From the NCBI GenBank assembly GCA_006226345.1, contig SBHD01000286.1, positions 1 through 36,259 on the forward strand: a DNA stretch of 36,259 nucleotides, read 5' to 3'. Positions 9,454 through 36,259 of the stretch are shown piece after piece. How positions within the stretch are numbered: the first letter of the stretch is position 1; every line of letters starts with the position of its first letter. Source of the DNA: Bacteroidota bacterium (GTDB lineage Bacteria > Bacteroidota > Bacteroidia > Chitinophagales > Saprospiraceae). The notes under the pieces were generated by a model. The model was not told the DNA's origin. It searched no databases and saw only the letters and a list, made by a program, of their open reading frames with translations. The translations under genes and the position numbers were made by a program.

Positions 9454-10503
9454 TTAGTTTTTCGTCAATTTATACGTGTAAACCGCCTTGTTCAGGATCA
9501 GGTCTATGGTATAATTGCCGGCTTCAGCAATGGGAATGTCTGCTCCGCCGTACTCCAGGGAGCCATTGGCATCATCATCGCCCAGGTTGATCACCCAATC
9601 GTCGTTGGCGCGGAACTTGATCTTACCGCCTGCGGTCAGATCAAGCGTCAGCGTCAGCTTGTTGTTGACATCATCGAAAACCATATCGGTGTCGTTATCC
9701 CAACCGGTAGGCGTAGCATCTCCGATAACACCCCAACTGGTGAGTTCGTATTTGTGCGTCAGGTCGTTCAAATTGACATTCAATTTGTACATACCAGCTC
9801 CGGAGGCAGCCGTAATATCTGTACCGCCTGCATCCAGGGTGCCGTCGGCGCCGGTATCGCCATAGTTGACATCCCAGCTCGGCCCATCCGTGTACTTGAA
9901 GGTGGGCGATGCGTCATTCATGTAGATATATCCCTCAAACCGGCCGTCACTCTTGAGGGAATAAATTACTGTATTGTCATCCGCCGGGTTCCAGCCCTGG
10001 TAGTTGCCCGGTACCTGCAATTGCGGATATACGATCACGATCGTATAAGGCGTAACCTTCAGGGTGATCGGCGCAGAATATACGACATCTACCTCCGGAC
10101 TGACCTTGACCGACAGGCGCATTTCAATTTCTGATTCGGCTTCACCTGGCAGACTGAGCGTGGTGAACAGCGAAGTATTGAATTTTGAAACGGTGCCATT
10201 CCAGGAGTCTCCGGTGCTCGTACCTACGATAACCGGATTGGCAAAGTCGTTGCCGGCACGGTCGATTTCAATAGTATAAGTGGCAGCGGCCTGGAAGCCA
10301 AAATCAGCCGGCGACCAGGTTACAGTAAAGGCATTGTCCGCATTGTCTTCCAGCAGCACAATAGCATCCTGATCGACCGGACTGGTAATTACCGGAAGTT
10401 TCATGACACTGTAAACCGTGCCCGGAAAAAACTCCCCTTTCCCACAACTGAGTGCAAAAAGCACTACAGCAGTGGTCATTAGATATAATATCTTCTTAAT
10501 CAT
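9454..10503 (-). CDS. SusE/SusF-like outer-membrane glycan-binding lipoprotein
   Basis: N-terminus MIKKILYLMTTAVVLFALSCGKGE (lipobox LSCG); SusE-like Ig region KLPVITSPVDQDAIVLLEDNADNAFTVTWSPADFG; two C-terminal modules (GNYQGWNP..., GDATPTGWDND...). 19-nt gap to the SusD stop. Confidence 0.88.
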   Translation of the reverse strand: MIKKILYLMTTAVVLFALSCGKGEFFPGTVYSVMKLPVITSPVDQDAIVLLEDNADNAFTVTWSPADFGFQAAATYTIEIDRAGNDFANPVIVGTSTGDSWNGTVSKFNTSLFTTLSLPGEAESEIEMRLSVKVSPEVDVVYSAPITLKVTPYTIVIVYPQLQVPGNYQGWNPADDNTVIYSLKSDGRFEGYIYMNDASPTFKYTDGPSWDVNYGDTGADGTLDAGGTDITAASGAGMYKLNVNLNDLTHKYELTSWGVIGDATPTGWDNDTDMVFDDVNNKLTLTLDLTAGGKIKFRANDDWVINLGDDDANGSLEYGGADIPIAEAGNYTIDLILNKAVYTYKLTKN

Positions 10504-10522: not shown

Positions 10523-12718
10523 TTAATAACCAGGGTTCTGCGTCAGGTTGGGGTTCGCACCGATGTCAGAAGCCGGGATCGGGAACACATCGTAGAAAGA
10601 CGGCCGCGATTCGCCGGTTGCCGAATTCCCCTTCCAGGGCCACAGGTAGTCGGTTTCGCTGAACTTGCCAAACCGGATCAGGTCCGTACGGCGATGGCCT
10701 TCCCAGTACAGTTCACGGGCGCGCTCATCCAGAATGAAGTCGAGGTCCATGTCGTCAAGTGTGACATTGCCAGCAGTACCGGCATAAGCACGTTCCCGGA
10801 TCTTATTGACCAGTTCAAGGGCGAGGTTGATATCACCACCCGCACCACCGCGACGGATTGCCTCAGCATACATCAGGTAAGCATCCTCAATGCGGAACAT
10901 GGGGAAGTCGGTATCTACCCAGGTCAGGTTGGAGCCTGGTGTACCGTCGGAGCGCATGTTGGAGAACTTCGTGATGGCGTATCCTTCCGTGAAGATGGCT
11001 ACATCCGATATCTCCAGTGACTGACCATCAGTGTGGAACAGCGCACGGCGATCGAAGATCGGCCGCTCGATGGAGTACGTGTAATCCGGCCGGTCGATGT
11101 ACAGTTTGAACAGGTAGGTGCCAGCATCCGATATGCTAATATTATCACCATCCTGCGACAAGATGCCATCGGCACCGGTATCGCCATAGTTGATCACCCA
11201 GTCATTATTAGCGCGGAACTTGCATGCGCCGGCAGTAAGATCCAACTGGACCGTCCAGGCATCTTCTGCCGGATCATATGTCATGTCCGAATCGATATCC
11301 CAGCCGCCAGGAGTAGCATCGCCGATGAGCCCCCAGGTCGTTTTCGTCATTGTATACGTGTTGCTGTTCAGGTCGACCTTGAGCCTGTAATACCCAGCCT
11401 CGGGGGCTAAAATGTTATCGCCCCCGGCGTCCAGCGTACCATCAGCACCGGTGTCACCGAAGTTGAAATCCCAGTTCGGGCCCAGGGTGAATTTGAATTC
11501 TGTGGCCTCCGTGAAATTAACATACCCCTCGTAGGTGTTATCGTTATTGCGCGAGCTGAGTTGGTTGCCGGTTGCCGGATCCCAGCCCTGGTGACCACCT
11601 GGCACATAAATTACCGGGTAAGTAGCCGTATTGCCGTCATTCGGAGCGACCACTACATTGCCACCCGTAGCCGGGAATTTGGCAACAAAGGCGCTGGTGG
11701 TGCGGGTACCGCCCCAGCCACCGTCAAGTCCGTAAGCAGACGGGCTCATGCTACCGCCAACGGCTGCATGGCAAACGAACGTCATGCCACCCCAGGTGCG
11801 GGTATGTGTGCCGTCGAATAAAACCGGGAAGATAATGCCGTCAGCCTGGTCGTTATCCGCCATAAACATGCGGGTATATTGCGGGTCCATGGTATAACCG
11901 GCATCGATGATCTTTTTAGTGTACGTAATACAATCGGTATAGCGCTCTCGGCCGGTGTACACATCGGCATTCAGGTATAATTTGGCCAGAACCATCCAGG
12001 CTGCTGCCTGATCGGCGCGGCCGTATTCATTCTGGTGCGGAGCAACAAGATCGTTCTCGATTGCGGTCAGTTCACTTTCCACATAGTTAAAGATCTCATC
12101 AGCAGAGCCCTGGCGTGGGAAGAAGGCGCCAACGGCGTCTGCCTCCGTTACGAATGGTACATTACGGAACATATCCAGTGCATGCCAATAGCTGAGCGCG
12201 CGCAGGAAGCGGGCTTCCGCGCGATACTTAACGATCTCGGCGCGCAGTGCTGCATCAACACCACGGCTGTCGAGCTTGGCATCCGTCGTTTCCCGGATAA
12301 ATTCGTTACAAAGCGAGATCTGGTAAAAGATCCGGTTGTACATAGCAGTGACGAATTCATTTTGTGAATCCCAGTCCTGCTGTTCGTAGTCATGGATGTT
12401 ACCGTCATTCCAGGCAATAACCGCCTCATCAGTGGTCAGTTCCTGTGCTTTCCAGTATTGGCGGACATAAGTAGAGAAACCCTCGTCAATGCCGCTGATG
12501 TCGGGCTGGCCGTCGGGTCCGGACTGGCCGCTGACAGAAAGACCGGCATACAACTTGGCCAGTACCTGGCGGTAGGTGGCCGGATCGTCGTATACCGTTG
12601 CCGCCGTAGTTTCATTCGGGTTGATCGGAATGGTATCCAGGTCTTTGACGCAGGAAACCACAAAAAGGGTGACGCCCAGGAGTAAGAGCGAGCCTATTTT
12701 ATAAGATTTAAAAACCAT
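10523..12718 (-). CDS. RagB/SusD family nutrient-uptake outer-membrane lipoprotein with inserted SusE-like modules
   Basis: Lipobox region LLLLGVTLFVVSCVKD; SusD motifs (AEARFLRALSYWHALDMFRNVPFVTEAD, AAWMVLAKLYLNADVYTG, FRIEDAYLMYAEAIRRG, LDFILDERARELYWEGHRRTDLIRFGKFSETDYLWPWKG, VFPIPASDIGANPNLTQNPGY). About 190 aa of SusE-like sequence interrupts it. Confidence 0.92.
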   Translation of the reverse strand: MVFKSYKIGSLLLLGVTLFVVSCVKDLDTIPINPNETTAATVYDDPATYRQVLAKLYAGLSVSGQSGPDGQPDISGIDEGFSTYVRQYWKAQELTTDEAVIAWNDGNIHDYEQQDWDSQNEFVTAMYNRIFYQISLCNEFIRETTDAKLDSRGVDAALRAEIVKYRAEARFLRALSYWHALDMFRNVPFVTEADAVGAFFPRQGSADEIFNYVESELTAIENDLVAPHQNEYGRADQAAAWMVLAKLYLNADVYTGRERYTDCITYTKKIIDAGYTMDPQYTRMFMADNDQADGIIFPVLFDGTHTRTWGGMTFVCHAAVGGSMSPSAYGLDGGWGGTRTTSAFVAKFPATGGNVVVAPNDGNTATYPVIYVPGGHQGWDPATGNQLSSRNNDNTYEGYVNFTEATEFKFTLGPNWDFNFGDTGADGTLDAGGDNILAPEAGYYRLKVDLNSNTYTMTKTTWGLIGDATPGGWDIDSDMTYDPAEDAWTVQLDLTAGACKFRANNDWVINYGDTGADGILSQDGDNISISDAGTYLFKLYIDRPDYTYSIERPIFDRRALFHTDGQSLEISDVAIFTEGYAITKFSNMRSDGTPGSNLTWVDTDFPMFRIEDAYLMYAEAIRRGGAGGDINLALELVNKIRERAYAGTAGNVTLDDMDLDFILDERARELYWEGHRRTDLIRFGKFSETDYLWPWKGNSATGESRPSFYDVFPIPASDIGANPNLTQNPGY
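11065..11625 (-). other. In-frame insert in SusD: two tandem SusE/SusF-like modules
   Basis: VIYVPGGHQGWDP...NFGDTGADGTLDAGGDNI... and WGLIGDATPGGWDIDS...NYGDTGADGILSQDGDNI... match the downstream SusE modules VPGNYQGWNP...NYGDTGADGTLDAGGTDI... and WGVIGDATPTGWDNDT...NLGDDDANGSLEYGGADI. Boundaries approximate. Confidence 0.85.
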
Positions 12719-19097: not shown

Positions 19098-19213
19098 GCG
19101 AATGCTTTTTTGTTCATAGATTCGTGGCCTGCAAATGCCGGTTGTCAAATATAGAGCTCCTGCTCCCTTTTACCGGCTCCTGGTTTACAGAATGGCTAAT
19201 TCATTTCCATACC

Positions 19214-22200
19214 ATGAAACATATTGCTCCCTTTTTATCTACCGTACTTATTCTTGTTCTTTCCCTTCAGTCGCAGGGGGGGCATGCTCAGGAAGTCCGG
19301 ACCCATCTAAATATCGACACCGGCTGGAAATTCAGTTTTGGACATGCCCAGGATCCGGCCCGGGACTTTAATTTTGGAATCCCTACGATCTTCTCCAAGT
19401 CCGGTGGTGTCGCCGGAACAGCAATTGATCCTAAATACAACGATAGTCTTTGGCGGGATCTGGATTTGCCCCATGACTGGGCAGTCGAGCTCCCTTTTGT
19501 CGAAGATCCGGCATTCAATGTCATGGCGCATGGCTACAAGCCGGTAGGGGGTAATTACCCTGCCACCAGTATCGGGTGGTACCGCAAACGCTTCACTGTA
19601 GAGGCGACCGGGCCGGGACAACGCTATCAGCTGCAGTTTGACGGTGTTTTCCGGGATGCGGAATTCTGGATCAATGGTTTTTACCTGGGAAACAACAAGA
19701 GTGGATATATCGGTGTAACCTATGACATTACGGATTTTTTGCGCTACGGAAGCGAAAATGTACTGGTCGTCCGGGTAGATGCCACCCAATATGAAGGCTG
19801 GTTTTATGAAGGTGCCGGAATATACAGGCATGTTTGGCTCAACAGCTATAACCCGGTGCACATTGCCCATGATGGGATTTTTACCTATTCACAGGTCAAT
19901 GGAAAACAGGCTGTAGTTATAGTAGAAACAAGTGTTGAAAACCAGGGGAATGCGTCGGCAGATGCTACCGTTACCGTGCTGTTGAAAGACCGGGCGGGTA
20001 ATGTAGTCGTTCGTTCCAAACCGCAGTCTGTTACTATAGGCATGGATGACAGTCAACTGGTCCGGTCGGAACTCGTGCTGGAAACCCCCAGACTTTGGGA
20101 ACTCCAAGACCCGTATCTGTACCGGGTACAAGTGGATGTGGCCGTTGGAGGGCGATTGCAGGACCGGCAGGTGCAACGTTTCGGGATCCGGACCGTTGAG
20201 ATCCGGACCAACGGCGTTTTCCTGAACGGCAAACACCTTAAGTTACAAGGCACCAATTGCCACCAGGACCATGCCGGTGTGGGGAGCGCCTTGCCGGATT
20301 ATCTGCAGTATTATCGGATCCGGCTGCTGAAGAACCTGGGTGTCAATGCATACCGGACCAGTCATAATGCACCTACTCCCGAATTGCTGGACGCCTGCGA
20401 TAGCCTGGGTATGCTGGTTATGGATGAGCAGCGTCTGCTGAACAGCAGTCCCGAATATATGGATCAGTTTGAGCGGCTGCTGAAACGCGACCGCAGCCGG
20501 ACCTGTGTGTTTATGTGGTGTATTGGCAATGAGGAAGGCTGGATCCATACCACTGAAACCGGTAAACGTATCGCCCAAACATTCATCCGGAAACAACAGG
20601 CCCTTGATCCCACCCGCACCTGTACGTATGCTGCCGACGTGCCCAATGTATATAAAGGTGTTAATGAGGTAATCCCGGTACGGAGCTTTAACTACCGGCA
20701 ATTTGCCGTGGCTGATTATCACCGGGACCACCCGGAGCAACCTATTATCGGTACGGAAATGGGTAGCACCGTCACATCCAGGGGTATGTATGAAAAAGAC
20801 AGCATCCGGGGATATGTACCGGATCAGGATATTACAGCACCCTGGTGGGCCAGTACCGCAGAAGCCTGGTGGACATTAGCTGCTGAAAATGACTTTTGGC
20901 TCGGTGGTTTCGTCTGGACCGGGTTTGACTACCGGGGCGAGCCCACACCGTTCCAATGGCCGAACATCAATTCGCACTTCGGCATTATGGATATGTGCGG
21001 CTTCCCGAAGAATCTTTACTATTACTATCAGTCCTGGTGGACGGACAAGGATGTGCTCCACATTTCGCCACACTGGAACTGGCGGGATAAAGGCCGAGAA
21101 CCGATTGAAGTGTGGGTCGACACCAATGCGGATTCTGTTGAATTATTCCTGAATGATAAAAGCTTGGGAAGCAAGTTGATGTCTCGGAATCGCCACCTGA
21201 AATGGACCGTAGAATATGCACCTGGTACGCTGAAGGCCGTAGCTTACAAACAGGGCCGGGTGTTTTCCAAAAAAATAGAAACGACCGGTCCGCCGGCGGA
21301 GATCGTACTGACGCCGTATAAAACAACGATGCTGGCAGATGGGAAAGACGTTACGGTAGTAAATGTCTCGGTCTTCGACCGGGAGGGCAGGGAAGTGCCG
21401 AATGCCAATAACCTGATCCGGTTTTCCATTGAAGGAAACGGGAAGATCATCGGCGTTGGTAACGGGGATCCGTCCTGTCATGAACCGGATATCTGTGCGG
21501 ATGGTGCCTGGCAGCGCAGCCTATTCAATGGAAAATGCCAGGTGCTGATACAGGCCGGTACCAAGCCGGATATGATCAAATTCGAGGCGACTGCTCCAAA
21601 CCTGTGGAAGGGATCCACCGATATTCAGACCGTTCCTCCCGTCAGTGTAGGCGTGATTACAGCGGATGATGCCTACCAGCTGACCCGGGATCAGGCAAAG
21701 CCCCGCACGGTGGACAGGATGATCGGCGCGGACATTTCGTTTTTGCCTCAACTGGAGGCCAGGGGGATCAAATTCAGGGAGAACGGGGAGGAGAAGGATG
21801 CCATCGAACTATTGCGCGAACACGGGTTTAACTACGTTCGGCTGCGTATTTTCCACAATCCGGCTTCGGAAAACGGCTATTCGCCTCAAGACGGATTTTG
21901 TGATCTGGAGCATACGCTGCAGATGGCTAAACGCGTGAAAGCTGCGGGGATGAAACTCTTACTGGATTTTCATTACAGCGACTATTGGGCTGATCCCGGC
22001 AAGCAGTATAAACCCAAGGCGTGGGAGGGTATGAAATTCCCGGCCCTGAAAAAGGCGCTTTACGACTATACATACGAGGTGGTCAGCAAACTGAAGGAGC
22101 AGGGGACTACACCCGATATGGTCCAGATTGGAAATGAGATCAATCACGGCATCGTTTGGCCCGAGGGGAATGTAAGCCACCTGGACAGTCTCGCCCAATT

Positions 22201-22624
22201 GCTCAACGCCGGTACCAAAGCCGTAAAGGATGTCGATCCTTCGGTCGTAATGATGTTGCACGTAGCTTTGGGCGGGCAGAATGACGAGTCGGTTTTCTTC
22301 ATTGACAACATGCTCAAACGCGGGGTGCATTTCGATGTGATCGGCGAATCGTACTATCCAAAATGGCACGGCACCCTGGACGACCTGCGTGACAACCTGC
22401 ACGACCTCGTCCGGAGATATAATAAGGATGTGATCGTAGTGGAATACTCTGCCCGCAAGGAGGAGGTGCACAAGATCACTTTTAGCCTGCCTGGCGGAAA
22501 AGGAAAGGGGACTTGTATCTGGGAACCGCTGAATACCTGGGAAGCCCTGTTTGACCGGGAAGGGAATTCAAATGATTACCTGCAATGGTATGACCGGTTC
22601 AAAGCAGAATATCTGCAAGACTAG
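19214..22624 (+). CDS. GH2 (beta-galactosidase-like) - GH53 (endo-beta-1,4-galactanase-like) fusion enzyme
   Basis: ATG 19214 gives signal peptide MKHIAPFLSTVLILVLSLQSQGGHAQ. GH2: WRDLDLPHDWAVE, GWYRKRFTV, LQGTNCHQDHAGVG, MWCIGNEEGW (acid/base Glu), IIGTEMGST (nucleophile Glu). GH53: GADISFLPQLEARGIKF, NYVRLRIFHNP, KLLLDFHYSDYWADPGKQYKPKAW, VQIGNEINHGIVWPEG, DVIGESYYPKWHGTLDDL, VVEYS. Confidence 0.93.
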   Translation: MKHIAPFLSTVLILVLSLQSQGGHAQEVRTHLNIDTGWKFSFGHAQDPARDFNFGIPTIFSKSGGVAGTAIDPKYNDSLWRDLDLPHDWAVELPFVEDPAFNVMAHGYKPVGGNYPATSIGWYRKRFTVEATGPGQRYQLQFDGVFRDAEFWINGFYLGNNKSGYIGVTYDITDFLRYGSENVLVVRVDATQYEGWFYEGAGIYRHVWLNSYNPVHIAHDGIFTYSQVNGKQAVVIVETSVENQGNASADATVTVLLKDRAGNVVVRSKPQSVTIGMDDSQLVRSELVLETPRLWELQDPYLYRVQVDVAVGGRLQDRQVQRFGIRTVEIRTNGVFLNGKHLKLQGTNCHQDHAGVGSALPDYLQYYRIRLLKNLGVNAYRTSHNAPTPELLDACDSLGMLVMDEQRLLNSSPEYMDQFERLLKRDRSRTCVFMWCIGNEEGWIHTTETGKRIAQTFIRKQQALDPTRTCTYAADVPNVYKGVNEVIPVRSFNYRQFAVADYHRDHPEQPIIGTEMGSTVTSRGMYEKDSIRGYVPDQDITAPWWASTAEAWWTLAAENDFWLGGFVWTGFDYRGEPTPFQWPNINSHFGIMDMCGFPKNLYYYYQSWWTDKDVLHISPHWNWRDKGREPIEVWVDTNADSVELFLNDKSLGSKLMSRNRHLKWTVEYAPGTLKAVAYKQGRVFSKKIETTGPPAEIVLTPYKTTMLADGKDVTVVNVSVFDREGREVPNANNLIRFSIEGNGKIIGVGNGDPSCHEPDICADGAWQRSLFNGKCQVLIQAGTKPDMIKFEATAPNLWKGSTDIQTVPPVSVGVITADDAYQLTRDQAKPRTVDRMIGADISFLPQLEARGIKFRENGEEKDAIELLREHGFNYVRLRIFHNPASENGYSPQDGFCDLEHTLQMAKRVKAAGMKLLLDFHYSDYWADPGKQYKPKAWEGMKFPALKKALYDYTYEVVSKLKEQGTTPDMVQIGNEINHGIVWPEGNVSHLDSLAQLLNAGTKAVKDVDPSVVMMLHVALGGQNDESVFFIDNMLKRGVHFDVIGESYYPKWHGTLDDLRDNLHDLVRRYNKDVIVVEYSARKEEVHKITFSLPGGKGKGTCIWEPLNTWEALFDREGNSNDYLQWYDRFKAEYLQD

Positions 22625-26600: not shown

Positions 26601-28217
26601 TCAGATCTCTTCGCCATACAGGAGCCATTTGGCCAGTTTGCCGTCAGGTCCCTGCACGAGGATGATGTTGGGGTACACGCGGATCTGACCGCCAGTAGTT
26701 TCGATCGTCCGGTTGGGGGCAGGGTAGGCGGCTTCAATCTCTGCGGTAGAAGCGCCTATACTGATATGCTTAAGCGTTTCACCTTTATAATCCGGGCTTG
26801 TAACAAGGAAATAGACCAACTGACCGCTGGCGGCATTTTCCATGATATAAAACCTGGAATTAGGGCCAGGGTGCAAGTTGTTGTAGGAACGGATATTATC
26901 GGTCACTTCGATCTCACTGCCCGGATCGGGCTCCGGAATATTGGAACTATCAATAAGAGAAAGGCCGTCAATGGTCTCGTTACCGGCAGTCGGCATGAGT
27001 GTAAGTGCGGGTTTGGCCGGCTGGATAGGTTCGCCGTTGAGGACTTTCAGGTTGTGAGCAGCCAACAGACTACCTTGTTCGGATGCTTTTGTGAAGGCTT
27101 CACGGGCTTTGGCGGTATTCCCTCCCCGGTCAGCCAAAATACCTTCCAGTACCCGGGCGTCTCGCACTGTTTTGGCGTATCCCGTCATTGAAGCCGCCTT
27201 TCCGGCATCGGACTGCGCTTTGGTCAGATCGCCAAGCAGGGCATAAGCACACCCCCGGTTGAGCCATGCCGGCGCATATTCCGGATCGAGGATAATGGCT
27301 GTATCAAAATGGGCGACCGCTTCCTTCAACATGCGGATGCGAAGTTGTTGGAAGTCTGAGATTGAACGGGTACCGGAGGAACCGAGGTCGAGTTCCAGCG
27401 GGTAGTGGTATTTAACTTCGGGTTCGGTAGGCCGGAAATAGTTGAGGGCGCCTAATACGGAAATGACCCCTGCATTATTGTAGGTTGCCGTGCTTTTAAA
27501 GTCTTGAAGCACATACGAGTAGTAGGCGTGTGCGTCTTCATACTTATTGAGTGCCATCAGCAGGTTTCCCATGTCAAACACTTCCGTTAGCTTCCGGAGC
27601 CGCTCACCCAGCTGTTTGTTATGCTCCCGGCGTTCTGCCAGGGTAGGGTAGCCCTCCAGTTTGTCCGGAAGCTCGTAGGCTTTGTAAAGCGCCGATATCA
27701 GTTCCGGACCCTTATCAAAAAGGTTAAAGCCTGCAGTATAGGCCAGGAACCCGCCGAGATAATCGGCCTGGTTCTCATATTCAGTCCCGGTTTGCGATGT
27801 ATTTCCGGTGTTACCCATCCGGTGCTGCAGGTCGTGCTTTTCGTAATAATGGATCAATTCATGTCCGAGCAGGGTCGCCAGCGCTGCGTCGGCCATTTCT
27901 TGATAAGAAACGGCTACATCAAATGCTTTTTCTTCCAGCCCGATCTCGCCGGTTGCTGGATTGGTCCAGGCACCGTACCGGGCATCGCTGGACATAACAA
28001 ATTTGGGGGCCGGTAATCTGCTGTCACCTTTGGTTTTAAGGAGTTGATCAAATATCCGGGATGCCCGCTCGTATTTGGTTTTATCCGGATTTGCCGTAGT
28101 TGCCGGAGCAGTGGTGCCAGTTTTTTTCAACAGGGCAAATACTGCTCCTGAGTTGGATTGCGCCGCAAGCGGGGCCATAATAATAAGGGTCAAAAGGGTC
28201 AAAAGCACTTGTTTCAT
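26601..28217 (-). CDS. Exported M48-like zinc metallopeptidase with TPR-like C-terminal region
   Basis: ATG 28217 gives signal peptide MKQVLLTLLTLIIMAPLAAQ (track start 28313 overlaps the upstream gene). LLGHELIHYYEKHD (HExxH) followed by TEYENQADYLGGFLAYTAG (ENQAD third-ligand region). TPR-like AVAHFDTAIILDPEYAPAWLNRGCAYALLGDLTKAQSDAGKAA. Confidence 0.8.
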   Translation of the reverse strand: MKQVLLTLLTLIIMAPLAAQSNSGAVFALLKKTGTTAPATTANPDKTKYERASRIFDQLLKTKGDSRLPAPKFVMSSDARYGAWTNPATGEIGLEEKAFDVAVSYQEMADAALATLLGHELIHYYEKHDLQHRMGNTGNTSQTGTEYENQADYLGGFLAYTAGFNLFDKGPELISALYKAYELPDKLEGYPTLAERREHNKQLGERLRKLTEVFDMGNLLMALNKYEDAHAYYSYVLQDFKSTATYNNAGVISVLGALNYFRPTEPEVKYHYPLELDLGSSGTRSISDFQQLRIRMLKEAVAHFDTAIILDPEYAPAWLNRGCAYALLGDLTKAQSDAGKAASMTGYAKTVRDARVLEGILADRGGNTAKAREAFTKASEQGSLLAAHNLKVLNGEPIQPAKPALTLMPTAGNETIDGLSLIDSSNIPEPDPGSEIEVTDNIRSYNNLHPGPNSRFYIMENAASGQLVYFLVTSPDYKGETLKHISIGASTAEIEAAYPAPNRTIETTGGQIRVYPNIILVQGPDGKLAKWLLYGEEI

Positions 28218-28276
28218 GTATATAAGGTTGAATGCAGGAATAGGCGAAGTTACACACAGTGGACGATCTGTACTGG

Positions 28277-31200
28277 TTAATGCGAATTTGTTTGTTGCTG
28301 AACTATAGGCCATACCTTTTCCATGATAGCGGCAGGAATACCTTCAATGTTTGTCTTGTCTGCGGTAAGTTCAAAAGTGGCCAGCGATTCTTTTCCCTTG
28401 ATCAGACCACCCGAAATTTGCACTTCGTTTCCGGATACGACATAATTTCCCCGGATGGCATAACCGTTTTCATAGCCGGTCGCCCTGGAATAAATGATCG
28501 GCGCCTGTGCGGGTTTTACGGTTAGCTTCTGAAAATAGGCATCCATGACATTGCCGAGGTCCAGGGGGTCATTGAATGTAACTTTATCATTGAGGGCGCT
28601 TTTGATAAATACCGGTTTCTCCTCTCCCACCGGAATATCGACCGAACTGGATTTTAACCCTATATCAAAGCTGGCGCCGGTAGTGGGGAAAGCCAGGACC
28701 GGTATCTGTACTCCGTTGATGCCTTTGGCCAGTTCAGGTACTTTATTTCGAGAATATTGGAAAAGGGTCATTACATCCACACTGTTGTCATCTCCCAGAG
28801 CTAGGCCATTCATGCCCTGGAGCAGGCTGTATGTGAGCAGCCCGTGCCGGAACATAGTGGTCTCATAACTCACCATATCTGCTGCACTGCCGGTGATAAT
28901 GAACATGCCGGTGCGGTCTTTCATCCGATCCAGCGCCCGTACCTGAGCGGAATTCAGGTCGCGACTTCCACTCGCCAGATCATCCACCAGTTTGCCGGAG
29001 TTGCAGGCATCCAGGATCAATACCTGTTTCAGGGCGGGGATGGCTTTGACCCAGTCGGTGATCTCTGTCGCGGATATGGCGAAATTCTCGCGTATCGCAT
29101 CGTCCTGCAGGTTTTCACTGACAATGTCTTTGGTCAGGTAATAAAACTGGGATTTTTCTGCGGTCCCGTAATTCACGCCGTGACCGGCAAAGTAGATCAG
29201 CAGGACATCCTGTGGCTGGGCCTCTTCAGCGACCTCTTCAAAAGCCTTTCGGATGGTGGTTTTGCTCGATACATCCACCCGGGTGCTGTCCTCGCTATCG
29301 GTATTCAGCAACATAATGTTTACCCGGTTCTCAAATACCCCCGGTGCAAGGAGTCGGAGCGCTGTGCTCATGGAGGCAGCATCGTGGTCGGCGAATTTTA
29401 ATTTGAGTTTTTCACTGGCATAGTTAGACGTGCCGATGACAATTGCGTGAAAACTGATCTTGCGGCGGTTGAGCAGGCTGCTGCGTCGGGTGGTTCCGGG
29501 CTCGGCTCCTTTGGACGTTGGTGCCTTATATTCCAACTCCAACTCCAGGGCCTGACTTTTTAGCCAACCAGCGTCGTTGTATACCCGCAGCGCCAGTTTG
29601 TTCGTCGTATCTGGCAGGCAATACCGGTAAAAATCATCCAGCGGGAGGTTCAGGGCAAGATTCCGGTTGGGGTTGGCGTCTTCCTTGACTTCCTTCCCGT
29701 TTACAAATACGCTGAGTTTCCCGATGCCTCCATTTCGCGGAGTCAGTTTTATTTCCACCTGGGTTTTGTCCGCGTTGAGTGCAGCCACCATTTCCGGATA
29801 CAGTGCCACATCCTTGAAGGTTTGGACCGAACGGGCCGGATCCTTGCTCAGGCCCAGGATCTTGGCCAGCAGGCCAGGCTCATAATACCGCTCTTTGAGC
29901 TGCTCCAATTCGATCACTTCGAGACCGACCACGAAATACATGAGGTTCATAGCTCCGGGGGAAGCGTCAAACATGCCGGACGGCGATGTCACTACCCAAT
30001 CATCGGCATCCACGGCCATCAGCGTGGCCAGTTCCTTTCCGGTGTTACTGTCCCAAAGTTTGGCGGTATTGTCCAGGCTGCCAGTCAGTACAAACTTCCC
30101 ATCTGGTGAAAATTTCGCCGACTGGATATCGTTTTCATGTCCTGTCAGGATGTGGAACACCTTACCATTCATATCCCATAAACGGGCTGTATGGTCAAAA
30201 CTGCTGGTCAGGACCCGGCCGTTGCCGTTTGGAGAAAATGCAACAGCACTGATCCCCTTAGTGTGTCCTTCAAAGGTATGCAGGAGACTACCGTCCAGGC
30301 TCCAGGTGCGGGCAGTGTTATCGTCGCTTCCTGTTAATATGAATTTGCCATCCGGGGCGAATACGGCGGAGGTCACCCAGCCCTCATGCCCGGTGAACGA
30401 AACAGACATCTGCCCATCCAGACTCCAAAGTCTGGCTTCTGTACCTCCGGCGGTGAGGATTTGTTTTCCACCGGGAGCAAAGGAAACGCCGTTTATTACG
30501 GATTCGTCATCGGTAAGTGTTTGAAGTTCCTTGCCACTGGTGTCCCATATTTTTGCTTCAAGACCGGTAGCTGTCAGGAGCTGTTTACTTCCTTTTCCAG
30601 GTGAAAAGGCAACACTGGTAACGACATCGGGATTGTCCAACGTAAGTAGTGCCTTTCCATCCAAATCCCAAAGTCTGGCGGTATAATCATCGCCTCCGGT
30701 TAGTACCTGCATAGGCGAATCATAAGGAGAAAAGCAAACAGACCGGACCCAGCCGACGTGTCCGGTATACAATATTACCATGTTCTGTTCGGGGGCCCAG
30801 CGGCGCACGGTTCCATCCACGCTTCCGGTCAGCAATTGTTTCCCGCCATCGGCATAGGAAAAGTCAACCGCGCTGATACCCTGTGCATGTCCTTTGAAGA
30901 TTTGCAGCATGTGCCCTTTCAGGTCCCAAAGGATAGCTGTGCCATCCTTGCTCCCGGTCACAAATGATTTTCCGTTGGGGGCAAATGCGACCGTTATCCT
31001 GGAAGGCGTGGTCTTGTGGCCACGGTATTCCTGAAGTTGATTGCCCTTCAGATCCCACAAGCGGGCGCTCAGGTCATGACTTCCGGTCAGGATCTGAGCG
31101 CCGTCTGGTGAGAAGACAGCCATGTTCACCTGGTCCGTATGTCCTGAAATGACCTGTAGTATCTCACCGCTCAGGCTCCACAGGATCGCTGTTTTATCGT

Positions 31201-31843
31201 CGCTGCAGGTCAAAACGGACTGGCCATCAGGAGCGAACACGCCGCCTTTAACCTTGCCTTTGTGTCCGGTCAGGGTTTGTAACACGGTTCCGTTCAGATC
31301 CCAGATAATAGCGGTGCTGTCCTTGCTGGCAGTCAGGATCCGCTGGCTGTCTGGTGAAAATGCCACGGTGTTGATATCCTTCTCATGCCCTTTGAATTTT
31401 TGCACTTCCTGCCCATCCAGGCTCCATAGGATAGCTTTATTATCCCGTCCGCCGGTCAGGATATATTTACCGTCTGGTGAAAAGGCGACGGACTCAATGT
31501 ACTTCTTATGTCCTTCAAATCGCTGTAAGATATTGCCGTTCAGGTCCCACAGAATGGCAATTGCGTCCTGGTCGGCCGTCACGATCTTTTTTCCGTCGGG
31601 CGAAAAGGCGACGGCGGCTACTTCCTTTGTATGTCCTTTGAAGGTTCGTATCTCGTGGCCTTTCAGGTCCCAGAGTTTCGCTGTAAAATCGGTACTGCCG
31701 GTCAGTATGTATTTACCGTCGGGTGAAATGGCTATTGCTTCAATCCCTTTGGTATGCCCGATCGGCGTTACCAGTCGCGGGGTTTGGGCACAAAGTTGAG
31801 TCAGGCTCAGGATAAGAAATAGCAGGAACGTTGATTTTTTCAT
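28277..31843 (-). CDS. Exported WD40-repeat (14 units) caspase-family (C14) protease
   Basis: Signal peptide MKKSTFLLFLILSLTQLCAQ; 14 GH...SPDGK.LTGS.D.TA.LWDL units; caspase fold FHAIVIGTSNYASEKLKLKFADHDAASM, DVLLIYFAGHGVNYG (His), QVLILDACNSGKLVDDL (Cys), GMFIITGSAADMVSYETTMFRHGLLTYSLLQGM. Confidence 0.93.
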   Translation of the reverse strand: MKKSTFLLFLILSLTQLCAQTPRLVTPIGHTKGIEAIAISPDGKYILTGSTDFTAKLWDLKGHEIRTFKGHTKEVAAVAFSPDGKKIVTADQDAIAILWDLNGNILQRFEGHKKYIESVAFSPDGKYILTGGRDNKAILWSLDGQEVQKFKGHEKDINTVAFSPDSQRILTASKDSTAIIWDLNGTVLQTLTGHKGKVKGGVFAPDGQSVLTCSDDKTAILWSLSGEILQVISGHTDQVNMAVFSPDGAQILTGSHDLSARLWDLKGNQLQEYRGHKTTPSRITVAFAPNGKSFVTGSKDGTAILWDLKGHMLQIFKGHAQGISAVDFSYADGGKQLLTGSVDGTVRRWAPEQNMVILYTGHVGWVRSVCFSPYDSPMQVLTGGDDYTARLWDLDGKALLTLDNPDVVTSVAFSPGKGSKQLLTATGLEAKIWDTSGKELQTLTDDESVINGVSFAPGGKQILTAGGTEARLWSLDGQMSVSFTGHEGWVTSAVFAPDGKFILTGSDDNTARTWSLDGSLLHTFEGHTKGISAVAFSPNGNGRVLTSSFDHTARLWDMNGKVFHILTGHENDIQSAKFSPDGKFVLTGSLDNTAKLWDSNTGKELATLMAVDADDWVVTSPSGMFDASPGAMNLMYFVVGLEVIELEQLKERYYEPGLLAKILGLSKDPARSVQTFKDVALYPEMVAALNADKTQVEIKLTPRNGGIGKLSVFVNGKEVKEDANPNRNLALNLPLDDFYRYCLPDTTNKLALRVYNDAGWLKSQALELELEYKAPTSKGAEPGTTRRSSLLNRRKISFHAIVIGTSNYASEKLKLKFADHDAASMSTALRLLAPGVFENRVNIMLLNTDSEDSTRVDVSSKTTIRKAFEEVAEEAQPQDVLLIYFAGHGVNYGTAEKSQFYYLTKDIVSENLQDDAIRENFAISATEITDWVKAIPALKQVLILDACNSGKLVDDLASGSRDLNSAQVRALDRMKDRTGMFIITGSAADMVSYETTMFRHGLLTYSLLQGMNGLALGDDNSVDVMTLFQYSRNKVPELAKGINGVQIPVLAFPTTGASFDIGLKSSSVDIPVGEEKPVFIKSALNDKVTFNDPLDLGNVMDAYFQKLTVKPAQAPIIYSRATGYENGYAIRGNYVVSGNEVQISGGLIKGKESLATFELTADKTNIEGIPAAIMEKVWPIVQQQTNSH
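30025..31780 (-). repeat. Coding region of 14 WD40 repeats
   Basis: Hand count from IGHTKGIEAIAISPDGKYILTGSTDFTAKLWDLKG to TGHENDIQSAKFSPDGKFVLTGSLDNTAKLWDSNTG. Units 10 and 11 are degenerate (DNPDVVTS..., TDDESVING...). Confidence 0.85.
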
Positions 31844-32385
31844 GGAAGGGAGTTTGAAACTGCCGGAATTATAAAATTCTAAAGAATTGTTTTAAGTACC
31901 ACATAAAATCCCGGAAGTATGCTAATACAATTACAAATATACCATAATTTTACCGGCGAATAGATTTTGCCCAAAGTCCAAATCCAGCCTGTAGCAGCCT
32001 TAAAACTGATGCGCAACAGGTTGGAAAAATCAAAACATGCCCTTTTGCTTTTATTCGGTGAACTGCGGAAGTGCTGTCGTAACAGCTTCTTTTTAGTAAA
32101 GCAGCCGGATGGCTACAACCATCTTCCGACCCCTTTGTCACTACCTCCAGACCAAAGCACCAACAGGTTGCAACTCTCCACTTTTTGAGTTCCTCGCCGG
32201 ATCTGCTAATAAAGGTATGTACCTGAATAAGTAAAAAGGAGCTATTCCTGAGCATTGTTACAATAATCCACCTTTTTGATACAATAATGGAAGCAGGGGC
32301 TTTCCCTTAGGTTCTAATTTTAATGCAGGAATAATAGTCGTTATTTCTGGTACCCGGTTTGGGGCAAATAGCAAGGCATCGCATT

Positions 32386-34131
32386 ATGAAAACAAGTCTG
32401 AAACCTGTATTAATTATACTTACCGGAATATGCCTGCCACTGGCTTCCCGGCTCCATGCCCAACAATTCAATACCGGTCTACTGCTGGATGAGGAAGGCT
32501 TTGAACAGGAGGTGGAGATGACGCCGGGCTTTAGCAATGACGGCCGGCGGGCCGGTGATCTTCCCCTGGAGTTCAGCCTGCGGCCTTTTTGTCCCAAACC
32601 TAAGAACCAGGGAGAGATAAATTCCTGTATCGGCTGGGCCATGGGGTATGGCGCACTGACCATCAGTCATGCCTACCGCGCCGGGAACCGCAATGCGGAC
32701 GATATTTCAGATCACGCCTTTTCCGCCCTGTACCTGTACAACCAGGCAAAGGTCGGCAACTGTATGGGCGGTGCAAATATTCAGCGGACGGCCAGGATAC
32801 TGAAAGAAAAAGGCGATTGCAAAAGTGACGATTTCGATTCGCCAAAGGCTGACTGCGAGCGGGAGCCCGATTCCGACCTGATCGAGACAGCCCAACAATT
32901 TGCCGTAAAAGACTACCTCGCCCTGTTCACCAACAGCTCCACGCCAAAGGAGAAAGTCGTGCGGACGAAAAGGAGCCTTGCTGAGGGGAAGCCGGTGATC
33001 GTCGGTATGCGGATCCGGGAGAGCCTGCGTAGCCTGAACGAGGAAGACCCGGTCTGGAAGCCGGGTACCAATGACGATAAACAGATGGGGGGGCATGCGC
33101 TGGTAGTGGTCGGATACAGCGACAAGACTGGTGAATTCGAACTGATGAACAGCTGGGGACCAAACTGGGGCGATGGCGGATTTTTCAAAATGAAATATCC
33201 GGATTTCGCCACTTATGCCGCCCAGGGCCTGCACTTGATCCTGGCGGAAGAGGAACTTTCTGCCGATGATATCGTCGGGCTCCAGCAACAGGCACAGGAG
33301 GCAGAAACGGATAAAAAGGAAGCGCTGGAGAAAGAAGAAGCGGCAACGAAGGAAAAGGAACAAGCTGAAATTGAACTCAAAAAGGCGAAAGACGCTCAGA
33401 ATGCTGCTCAGATCGCTGCCGCGCAGCAACAGCTGGAGCAGGCTGCTACCCGGGAGGCTGCTGCCCGCGAACAGCAAAAGGCTGCCGAGGCGGTTATCGC
33501 CGAAGTGGAAGACCGGCTGGTCGCTCTTTACGGCGAATTTCAGGTGCGGATACCGGAGACCGACGAGTTTGGAACACTGATGTATGACGATACGGGAGGT
33601 GTAAAGTTCCGGTATCTGACCCCCCAATGGAACGGCAGCTACTATACGCTCGACAAAATGGACTGGGAGGAAGGTGACGGCTTTCAGATCATTGCCCGTG
33701 ATATTAAAAAGGACCGGTATGTCTACCTCTTTAGTTTTGATGGAAATGAAAAACTCGAGGTGCACTGGCCGCGCAGCCTCCGGGCCAGCTTACATGGCAC
33801 TTCCGAAGGCAGCACCGAGAGTGCACTGGTCGCGCACAAGGGGGCTGAGATACTGATCCCGGGAGAAGATGGTGTGCTTACCCGGGAGAATTTATTGGAC
33901 GATAACATCTGTACCCTATACTCTTTCGATAAAATATCCGACATCGAGCAACGGCTGAACCGGCTCAAAAACCTTGGCGGGCCCTTTGAAGAGCGCCTGC
34001 AAAAAGCCTTTGGTGACCTGCTCATTCCTGCCGACAAGATCGATTACGGCAAAGACCAGATGACCTGTAAAACTGAAGTGAAAGGACAAGGCTCGGTAAT
34101 ACCGATCCTGGTCAAATTGCAAAATCAATGA
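32386..34131 (+). CDS. Exported papain-like C1 cysteine peptidase with coiled-coil linker and C-terminal DUF4384-like region
   Basis: ATG 32386 gives signal peptide MKTSLKPVLIILTGICLPLASRLHAQ. Catalytic motifs KNQGEINSCIGWAMGYGA (Gln/Cys), MGGHALVVVGYSD (His), FELMNSWGPNWGDGGFFKM (Asn). Glu/Lys/Ala-rich coiled coil QQQAQEAETDKKEALEKEEAATKEKEQAEIE...EQQKAAEAVIAEVEDRL. C-terminal RYVYLFSFDGNEKLEVHWPR...KGAEILIPGEDGVL. Confidence 0.88.
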   Translation: MKTSLKPVLIILTGICLPLASRLHAQQFNTGLLLDEEGFEQEVEMTPGFSNDGRRAGDLPLEFSLRPFCPKPKNQGEINSCIGWAMGYGALTISHAYRAGNRNADDISDHAFSALYLYNQAKVGNCMGGANIQRTARILKEKGDCKSDDFDSPKADCEREPDSDLIETAQQFAVKDYLALFTNSSTPKEKVVRTKRSLAEGKPVIVGMRIRESLRSLNEEDPVWKPGTNDDKQMGGHALVVVGYSDKTGEFELMNSWGPNWGDGGFFKMKYPDFATYAAQGLHLILAEEELSADDIVGLQQQAQEAETDKKEALEKEEAATKEKEQAEIELKKAKDAQNAAQIAAAQQQLEQAATREAAAREQQKAAEAVIAEVEDRLVALYGEFQVRIPETDEFGTLMYDDTGGVKFRYLTPQWNGSYYTLDKMDWEEGDGFQIIARDIKKDRYVYLFSFDGNEKLEVHWPRSLRASLHGTSEGSTESALVAHKGAEILIPGEDGVLTRENLLDDNICTLYSFDKISDIEQRLNRLKNLGGPFEERLQKAFGDLLIPADKIDYGKDQMTCKTEVKGQGSVIPILVKLQNQ

Positions 34132-34178
34132 TAACCGGCTTGCTACCGGTTGGATGCTAAAACTATTGGGATAAAACC

Positions 34179-36259
34179 ATGAAAAAGACCTTACTCTTTT
34201 TGCTGCTTATACCGGTATTAGGAATAAGCCAGGAAGCGCCTAACCTATCCTGGAAACGCATTTACGGCGGTAAAAAATCTGAAACCGCTCACGATGTGAT
34301 CTCTACCTATGTTGGACAGATCGTGGTTGTAGGTGAAACAGAATCCCCTCCTGCTGAAAAAACGGACGGGCTGATGCTCCTGCTTGGCCCGCAGGGCGAT
34401 ACGGTATTCGAACGGCGGTATGGCGGAGAAGGAGAGGATGTCATTAAGGCCGTAGTACAAACGTATGATGGCAATTTTGTGCTGGCTGGTCATACCAATT
34501 CACTGGGTAATGGTAAGACAGATGCCTGGTTGCTGAAAGTCAATGGAAGAGGGGATACATTGTGGCAAAAAGTAATTGGCGGTCCAGGTGATGACACCTT
34601 TGAAGATATCATGCAAACAACCGACGGATACCTGGTCGCCGTCGGTGCCACCTCGGATAATGGCCGGGAGGATACCTGGGTGTATAAAGCCTATGATGAC
34701 GGGGAGTTGGTGTGGCAACAAACATATGGTAATAGAGGCTTTGACATGGCAACAGCCGTCACAGAAGGCATGGATGGCAATTATGGTATTGTCGGTATAA
34801 CGTCGGCGGGCAAGGGAAGCCGGAATATTTGGCTGTTTATCCTGAGCAAGGAAGCCAAGCCCCTGGCGCATCAAATCTTCGGGACCCGGCAGTGGGAAGA
34901 AGTACACAGTGTGGTGGGTACTGCCGATGGGGGATATGCACTGGCCGGGTATGCTAAAACGGTAGCGCAGAACAAGGGGTCGGGGCTTAATGACATGTGG
35001 GTGATCAAAACCGATGCGGGAGCCCAGGAGGTCTGGCAGAAGACCTATGGAGGAAACAGTAATGACAGTGCATTTGACCTCATCGAAACGCCTGACAATG
35101 GTCTGGTGGTGGCAGGTTATACTTTTTCCCACCTGATCGGGGCAAACAGACCTGCTGCCATGCTGATCAAGGTCAATGGCCGGGACGGCCGGCTGATCTG
35201 GGAACAAAAACCGCCGTTTGGCGGCTCGGGCACCGACAAACTGGCGGCGCTGGTACTGATGCCGGATGGCAGTTTGGTGTTAGCCGGCCAGACTGACTCT
35301 AAGCAGGAAGGCGCCCGCAGCCAGGATATTTGGGTGCTTCGACTGGTCCCGGAGTATGTGCCGACCACGACGCTGCCAACCGAACTTAAGTTGAAAAACC
35401 TTGAACTCAAAGGAGTCCGGAATGGTGTACTGACGGAAAACGATGAACCTGCTCTTGTATTTACCCTGGAGAACACGGGTAATTTGGATGCCTTCGATGT
35501 CCGCATCGACATACAGGAAAAAGCCGGGGTGTCGGAAGTTTCTTTCCCGGTAGGGGTGCTTGCCGGATTTATCGGTGCCGGCCGGTCAAAAACGATCAAC
35601 CTGCCGCTTCGGGCAAAAAAGATAACCAAGGTGTCCACTGCCCGTTTTCAGGTACATTATTCAGATGCCAGCCGCACCCGCGGTGCCTCGGAGGAGGTCA
35701 GCGTCAAAGTACAACCGGCGGAGATCCCGTCCAATTTCCTGCAGGTCGAATGGGTCAATCCGAGTCTGGAGGAATTCCCGGGAAAAAATAAGGATGTCAA
35801 GATGGAGCGGGTCAGCGTTAAGGTACTCGCACGCAGTGACAAACCTCTGAAGCGCGGCAACTTTACGATCATGCTCAACGGCGAGCCCTACAAGGTCGGC
35901 CAGAAATCAGGTGAAGCGAGCCTGCGCTCCAAAAAGAACAACCAGCAGGATGCCTCCGGGATGTACCTCTACACGTATTCCAATATTCTAACCCTGCCGT
36001 TGGGGGATAATACCGTGGAGGTAGTGGTAGCAAATGACACAAAAAAAGAGTCCTCAGGTATTTTCCGCTTTAATTATAACGACAAACCTAATCTGCACAT
36101 CATTGCCCTTGGAATACAACATGACGATCTGTTGTATACGACCAAGGATGCTGAGGATTTTGCTGCCAGTTTTCAGGGACAGGACGGCAAGGTGTTCGAC
36201 AAGGTGTATATGCGAAAACTGGTCAGCGGGGATACGACCAGGGCCGGAGAAGTGCAAAC
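34179..36259 (+). CDS. Exported beta-propeller / Ig-like protein entering a caspase-like domain; truncated by the window end
   Basis: Translated by hand, no stop through 36257: MKKTLLFLLLIPVLGISQ...; repeats W...YGG..D.....V...DG..V.AG.T.S...G.D.W..K; CARDB-like TENDEPALVFTLENTGNLDAFDVRIDIQE; Ig-like segment; then KPNLHIIALGIQHDDLLYTTKDAEDFAASFQGQDGKVFDKVYMRKLVSG, as at the start of a C14 p20 domain. Absent from the ORF track. Confidence 0.85.
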   Translation, partial: MKKTLLFLLLIPVLGISQEAPNLSWKRIYGGKKSETAHDVISTYVGQIVVVGETESPPAEKTDGLMLLLGPQGDTVFERRYGGEGEDVIKAVVQTYDGNFVLAGHTNSLGNGKTDAWLLKVNGRGDTLWQKVIGGPGDDTFEDIMQTTDGYLVAVGATSDNGREDTWVYKAYDDGELVWQQTYGNRGFDMATAVTEGMDGNYGIVGITSAGKGSRNIWLFILSKEAKPLAHQIFGTRQWEEVHSVVGTADGGYALAGYAKTVAQNKGSGLNDMWVIKTDAGAQEVWQKTYGGNSNDSAFDLIETPDNGLVVAGYTFSHLIGANRPAAMLIKVNGRDGRLIWEQKPPFGGSGTDKLAALVLMPDGSLVLAGQTDSKQEGARSQDIWVLRLVPEYVPTTTLPTELKLKNLELKGVRNGVLTENDEPALVFTLENTGNLDAFDVRIDIQEKAGVSEVSFPVGVLAGFIGAGRSKTINLPLRAKKITKVSTARFQVHYSDASRTRGASEEVSVKVQPAEIPSNFLQVEWVNPSLEEFPGKNKDVKMERVSVKVLARSDKPLKRGNFTIMLNGEPYKVGQKSGEASLRSKKNNQQDASGMYLYTYSNILTLPLGDNTVEVVVANDTKKESSGIFRFNYNDKPNLHIIALGIQHDDLLYTTKDAEDFAASFQGQDGKVFDKVYMRKLVSGDTTRAGEVQ

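Follow-up and report, generated by a model that had tools for sequence, protein, structure and literature searches.

In Saprospirales, genes for an exported papain-like protease of family C1 and an exported propeller-caspase stand side by side, and in relatives of the genome analyzed here these two are followed, in conserved order, by genes for a giant surface protein of the CHU_C (type-B CTD) kind and for a PorP/SprF shuttle. The genomic association of the protease pair with this type IX secretion system (T9SS) cassette is, in our judgment, very probably real. We further propose, with about an even chance of being right, that the right half of the locus described below is the front of a T9SS operon in which a periplasmic protease pair matures or clears the co-encoded giant protein. 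The operon rests on gene order as observed in the relatives, on fragments of CHU_C and PorP genes that this genome contains and on the intact catalytic residues of the proteases; the function is inferred.

The window, i.e., the whole stretch of DNA analyzed, is an entire contig (G000:C155) of 36,259 nt from a 5.2 Mb genome that is assembled in 410 contigs. It contains the following features:

26601..28217, minus strand: exported M48-like metalloprotease with TPR repeats (by Pfam) and a C-terminal domain of ~120 aa; 538 aa, start ATG 28217 (gene 1)
28277..31843, minus strand: exported WD40-caspase, 1188 aa; WD40 21-610, C14 799-1038, C-terminal domain of ~90 aa (gene 2)
32258..32291, plus strand: putative operator of a hybrid two-component regulator (HTCS), two 12-bp direct repeats TACAATARTSSR with a 21-bp period, ~95 bp before the C1 start
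32386..34131, plus strand: exported papain-like C1 protease, 581 aa; PF00112 above cut-off (gene 3)
34179..36259, plus strand: exported propeller-CARDB-like-caspase, first 693 residues, open at the contig end (gene 4)

The four consecutive exported genes of peptidase type that an earlier note had described were recovered as open reading frames 26601-28217(-), 28277-31843(-), 32386-34131(+) and 34179-36257(+, open). So was their arrangement in two divergent units, for which that note gave gaps of 59 and 47 nt and a separation of about 540 bp; the measured distances are 59 nt (M48/TPR to WD40-caspase), 47 nt (C1 to propeller-caspase) and 542 nt (between the halves). Its domain calls held for WD40 and C14 in gene 2 and for Peptidase_C1 in gene 3, whereas gene 1 stays under the Pfam cut-off and is assigned to M48 through a profile comparison with PDB, and gene 4 is assigned to the caspases through its orthologues. 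Elsewhere in the window, a SusD homologue (10523-12718, minus strand) has SusF/SusE-like modules inserted in the middle of the protein (SusD-like_3 100-249, X25-like 374-433, SusF_SusE 464-551, SusD_RagB 577-731) that resemble the adjoining SusE-type gene (9454-10503), and a GH2 glycosidase fused to a GH53 endo-galactanase domain (19124-22624, plus strand) is encoded close to a SusC/SusD pair.

Gene 3 is predicted, from its sequence and structural model, to encode a genuine C1 protease. The protein consists of a catalytic domain (~27-285), a long helical hairpin (293-375) and a C-terminal beta domain (378-578), with no I29-type propeptide visible. Besides the match to PF00112, membership in Peptidase C1 follows from the catalytic set Gln75, Cys81, His237 and Asn255, of which the first three are invariant and the last nearly so in 25 C1 sequences, and from the AlphaFold model (pLDDT 88.8), whose closest solved fold in PDB is xylellain (3ois, E=5.9e-17). 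Relatives of this protein are present at E<=1e-20 in 41 of 396 genomes evenly sampled from the phylum, some of them matching the catalytic domain alone, and at E<=0.001 in 72 of 150 related genomes.

The contig ends shortly after the start of the caspase domain of gene 4, with ~41 residues of the domain present and the break before the dyad, and the caspase nature of the protein rests on full-length orthologues of 926 aa (genome G022) and 927 aa (genome G031). The former, to which the window protein is 73% identical, matches PF00656, and the His and Cys residues are found in all 46 propeller-caspase homologues that have the C14 domain. The family has a layout of a propeller with sequence kinship to the CylK propeller, a CARDB-like middle part and C14. 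The G022 orthologue was modelled with a pLDDT of 83.7; a fold search with the whole model is dominated by propeller and beta domains (CylK, integrin) and has little bearing on the caspase domain. With the full orthologue as query, the rest of gene 4 was not found elsewhere in the same genome, and the missing part probably falls in an assembly gap. Membership in family C25, together with PorU, was considered and rejected, the complete homologues scanned showing C14 only, with neither C25 nor a sorting domain. The genome also encodes caspase paralogues grouped in twos or threes (L127, L128, L129, L130), several of them at contig ends.

The pairing of C1 with the propeller-caspase is far above chance. 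Our set comprised 83 distinct C1 genes sharing the C-terminal domain, with the next gene visible for 80; a caspase is encoded directly downstream (+1) in 44 of these, and 39 of the 44 caspases are of the propeller type. The pair recurs across Saprospirales, so that the linkage supposed in the earlier note is borne out for this pair. The evolutionary distances among the C1 proteins are mirrored by those among the caspases (r=0.93; the highest value under permutation was 0.18), and the pair label clusters on the C1 tree, with 14 changes compared to 26.9 upon shuffling; the observed clustering was reached in 0 of 500 shuffles. Judging by these sequence comparisons, paired C1 and caspase proteins share one history. 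Among the scorable family members, 28 of 76 have no caspase partner, and one unpaired group (G020, G023, G039) is nested among paired relatives on the C1 tree. It could be argued that proteases merely cluster by chance in a caspase- and peptidase-rich genome, given that 26 C14 domains in 5.2 Mb make a caspase near a caspase less surprising than it appears, and that few genomes retain all four genes together. The frequency of the caspase at +1, the mirrored distances and the shuffled trees speak against this explanation, which we consider very improbable for the locus; it is refuted for each pair and possible for the junction between the halves.

Among 36 loci with a propeller-caspase, 24 encode CHU_C and/or PorP/SprF downstream of the pair (+2/+3), the CHU_C proteins often exceeding 1500 aa; in all but one of the other 12 loci, the downstream gene is cut by the end of the sequence. 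Two of these cut loci, the orthologous ones in G022 and G031, could be read further and encode CHU_C proteins (2690 and 2629 aa, respectively), each followed by PorP/SprF, i.e., a T9SS type-B cassette. In the genome of the window, the cassette is represented by fragments on other contigs: C10 carries a CHU_C tail running into the start of PorP, and C321 and C384 carry PorP tails. These fragments are 71-82% identical to the G031 orthologue, and they are linked to the window by homology and order, as the contigs are not joined. Since CHU_C has only 41 matches in the whole genome, about 1% of the genes, its presence downstream is not background. The T9SS context was absent from the earlier note because the contig ends there. 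The giant surface-protein genes on C10 and C384 (L243, L245) contain tandem repeats of ~51 aa that are common to both contigs and are plausibly the cause of the assembly breaks.

After PorP in G022, there are genes of SIR2/TIR and nSTAND1-FGE type (L227 14545-18611), and a similar pair follows the PorP tail on C321 (L244 281-4077), giving the surface operon defence-like neighbours; the nSTAND-FGE type gene in this position supports the same gene order in the genome of the window. Programmed cell death and anti-phage defence roles have been proposed for other bacterial caspases, and the 26 C14 domains of this genome, along with these SIR2/TIR and nSTAND-FGE genes, would be compatible with such a role. 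We nevertheless regard it as highly unlikely for this locus, given that the signal peptides put the proteins outside the cytoplasm and that the constant neighbours are secretion parts rather than defence genes.

Both the C1 protease and the propeller-caspase have Sec signal peptides, as judged by eye from the sequences, and a T9SS sorting domain was recognised in neither; they are hence most likely retained in the periplasm. Taken together, the gene order and co-inheritance suggest a role of the two proteases in support of the surface protein or of its shuttle. Specifically, we propose that the pair could act on the giant CHU_C protein or the PorP/SprF shuttle in proteolytic maturation or, alternatively, that it might remove stalled or misfolded adhesin. 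In the caspase, recognition would fall to the propeller and the CARDB-like domain, and in the C1 protease to the helical hairpin and the beta domain. Type-B substrates and PorP/SprF shuttles are known to form cognate pairs (PMC12618676, PMC9143113). The type-B substrate PG1035 of P. gingivalis was reported not to be cleaved at the CTD (PMC9143113), which indicates that processing is not a general need of type-B substrates. A narrower version of the proposal, in which the C1-caspase pair would be a machine devoted to the processing or sorting of type-B T9SS proteins and thus a counterpart of PorU, appears doubtful to us.

The left half of the locus encodes a second, separately conserved pair of envelope proteases, the WD40-caspase and the M48/TPR protein. 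The caspase matches PF00656 at 3e-18, and its dyad (His in AGHG, Cys in DACNSG) is present in 15 of 15 family members, as expected of C14. The product of gene 1 contains the motif HELIHYYEKH and the downstream ENQAD (E-x3-D), i.e., the HExxH and Glu ligand typical of M48; it scores 17.5 bits against PF01435, beneath the cut-off of 20.3, and its family profile retrieves from PDB the M48 peptidase 3c37 (E=1.5e-4). This signature is missing from the three closest homologues of gene 1, the M48 catalytic domain being deleted in G022 and G031, and HExxH having decayed to RPLIRF in G023, which implies that M48 activity is not essential to the role of the gene in those genomes. Linkage, likewise supposed in the earlier note, is conserved here as well: a caspase or WD40 gene adjoins 14 of the 24 sampled M48 genes, with WD40 present in 9 of the 14. 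Functional linkage is thus well supported inside each of the two pairs.

In its layout, the left pair appears to resemble the periplasmic M48-TPR protease BepA, the role of which is described in PMC7950410 and PMC8423444. By analogy, all these proteins could be general proteases of envelope quality control or turnover, their place next to T9SS genes being due to common regulation and not to a common substrate, and control by HTCS or ECF sigma factors would fit an envelope stress or nutrient response. Such a reading is unlikely, in our opinion, as the C1-caspase-CHU_C-PorP order is too specific for it and the paired C1 and caspase proteins share one history.

The left pair neighbours the right pair in only a few genomes. 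Among the sampled genomes, the combined divergent locus is seen solely in the window, G022 and G031, the latter two being of the same genus, and in both of them an HTCS gene is interposed between the halves. The single four-protease cascade envisaged in the earlier note is therefore rejected as a general unit, the locus being limited to two sampled relatives in which a regulator separates the halves and the M48 domain is lost. The broader notion that these protease classes form one neighbourhood survives in part: the four-gene set of the window is rare, whereas C1, C14 and M48/TPR genes adjoin in other arrangements in sister families, for example as a C1-C14-M48 gene string in G127. MORN-repeat C1 proteases adjoin M48/TPR genes in sister families (L091, L092, L093, L096), indicating that these protease classes recombine as neighbours, and in L093 the C1, C14 and M48 genes form a single same-strand string.

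With regard to regulation, a 33-bp degenerate pattern (32258-32290) covering the direct repeats ahead of the C1 gene has a single occurrence in the genome and mismatch-free counterparts in the orthologous loci that G022 and G031 carry; in L148 and L149, pair loci that are more distant, a search ahead of the C1 gene did not find it. HTCS_Rgu-1 has 12-bp sites with a 9-bp spacer (PMC3878776), the same geometry as that of the window repeats, and in both geometry and position the putative element has the properties of an HTCS operator, i.e., direct repeats with a period of ~20-21 bp near an HTCS gene. This gene adjoins the element in G022 and G031 and is located on another contig in the genome of the window, where no HTCS gene remnants are detectable between the halves. 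Its closest relative in that genome (57%) is on C229 and adjoins another WD40-caspase. The hybrid two-component regulator thus probably switches on the operon through the candidate operator at 32258-32291, and this part may be played by an ECF sigma/anti-sigma pair in other genomes.

The latter genes bear on another explanation, namely, an extracytoplasmic signalling cascade in which the propeller-caspases would sense a ligand, activate the C1 and M48 proteases and act via anti-sigma factors or other regulators. ECF sigma and anti-sigma/TPR genes are encoded 1-4 genes upstream of C1 in a sizeable minority of loci, most of the predicted anti-sigma proteins inspected have a transmembrane segment, and C1, C14 and M48 genes adjoin in several arrangements. 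However, most pair loci, and the window itself, lack adjoining sigma/anti-sigma genes, M48 activity appears to be lost in close homologues, and the four-gene set is rare. We therefore regard such a cascade as a minority possibility and rank it next after maturation or clearance of the surface protein, for which even chances apply to the statement as a whole. The neighbourhood evidence does not separate processing, degradation and signalling.

This order is rich in bacterial caspase homologues, with 28 metacaspases reported in Haliscomenobacter hydrossis (PMC3501461) and 26 domains here; the expansion as such is thus already known. A fixed operon with a giant surface protein and its shuttle gives these caspases a specific candidate substrate. 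The association also bears on how type-B T9SS proteins are matured, retained or shed. If the pair were indeed a PorU counterpart, exported bacterial caspases would gain a first defined physiological function, and one serving the type-B class of substrates. Our search of the literature on caspases together with T9SS or SprF found no relevant paper, and the pair appears to be undescribed.

Several known systems invite comparison. PorU, the T9SS sortase, belongs to gingipain family C25 of the caspase-gingipain clan and is, similarly, a cysteine protease of this clan tied to T9SS surface proteins; the window-type domain, in contrast, is C14 with no C25 match and no recognised sorting CTD, and its association is with type-B substrates, not type-A ones. 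Bacterial metacaspases and orthocaspases share with the window proteins the C14 domain with its His/Cys dyad, WD40 fusions and the large expansion in this order, whereas signal peptides, the propeller-CARDB-like architecture and a fixed operon partner are distinctive here. Xylellain, the C1 protease of Xylella fastidiosa, is the best structural match to the C1 domain, but at ~20% identity and only over the protease part, with the helical hairpin and the C-terminal beta domain left uncovered. BepA of E. coli has the exported M48 domain and TPR of gene 1, with agreement in layout alone given the weak profile match (E about 0.1); gene 1 is very distant from it and differs in having an extra C-terminal domain, a WD40-caspase partner and close homologues from which the catalytic domain is gone. 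Finally, SprB-SprF of Flavobacterium johnsoniae and PG1035-PorP of Porphyromonas gingivalis have the same succession of a CHU_C protein and its PorP/SprF partner as the cassette described here, which differs in the two exported cysteine proteases upstream, a feature that the available text of PMC12618676 and PMC9143113 does not mention for the known cassettes.
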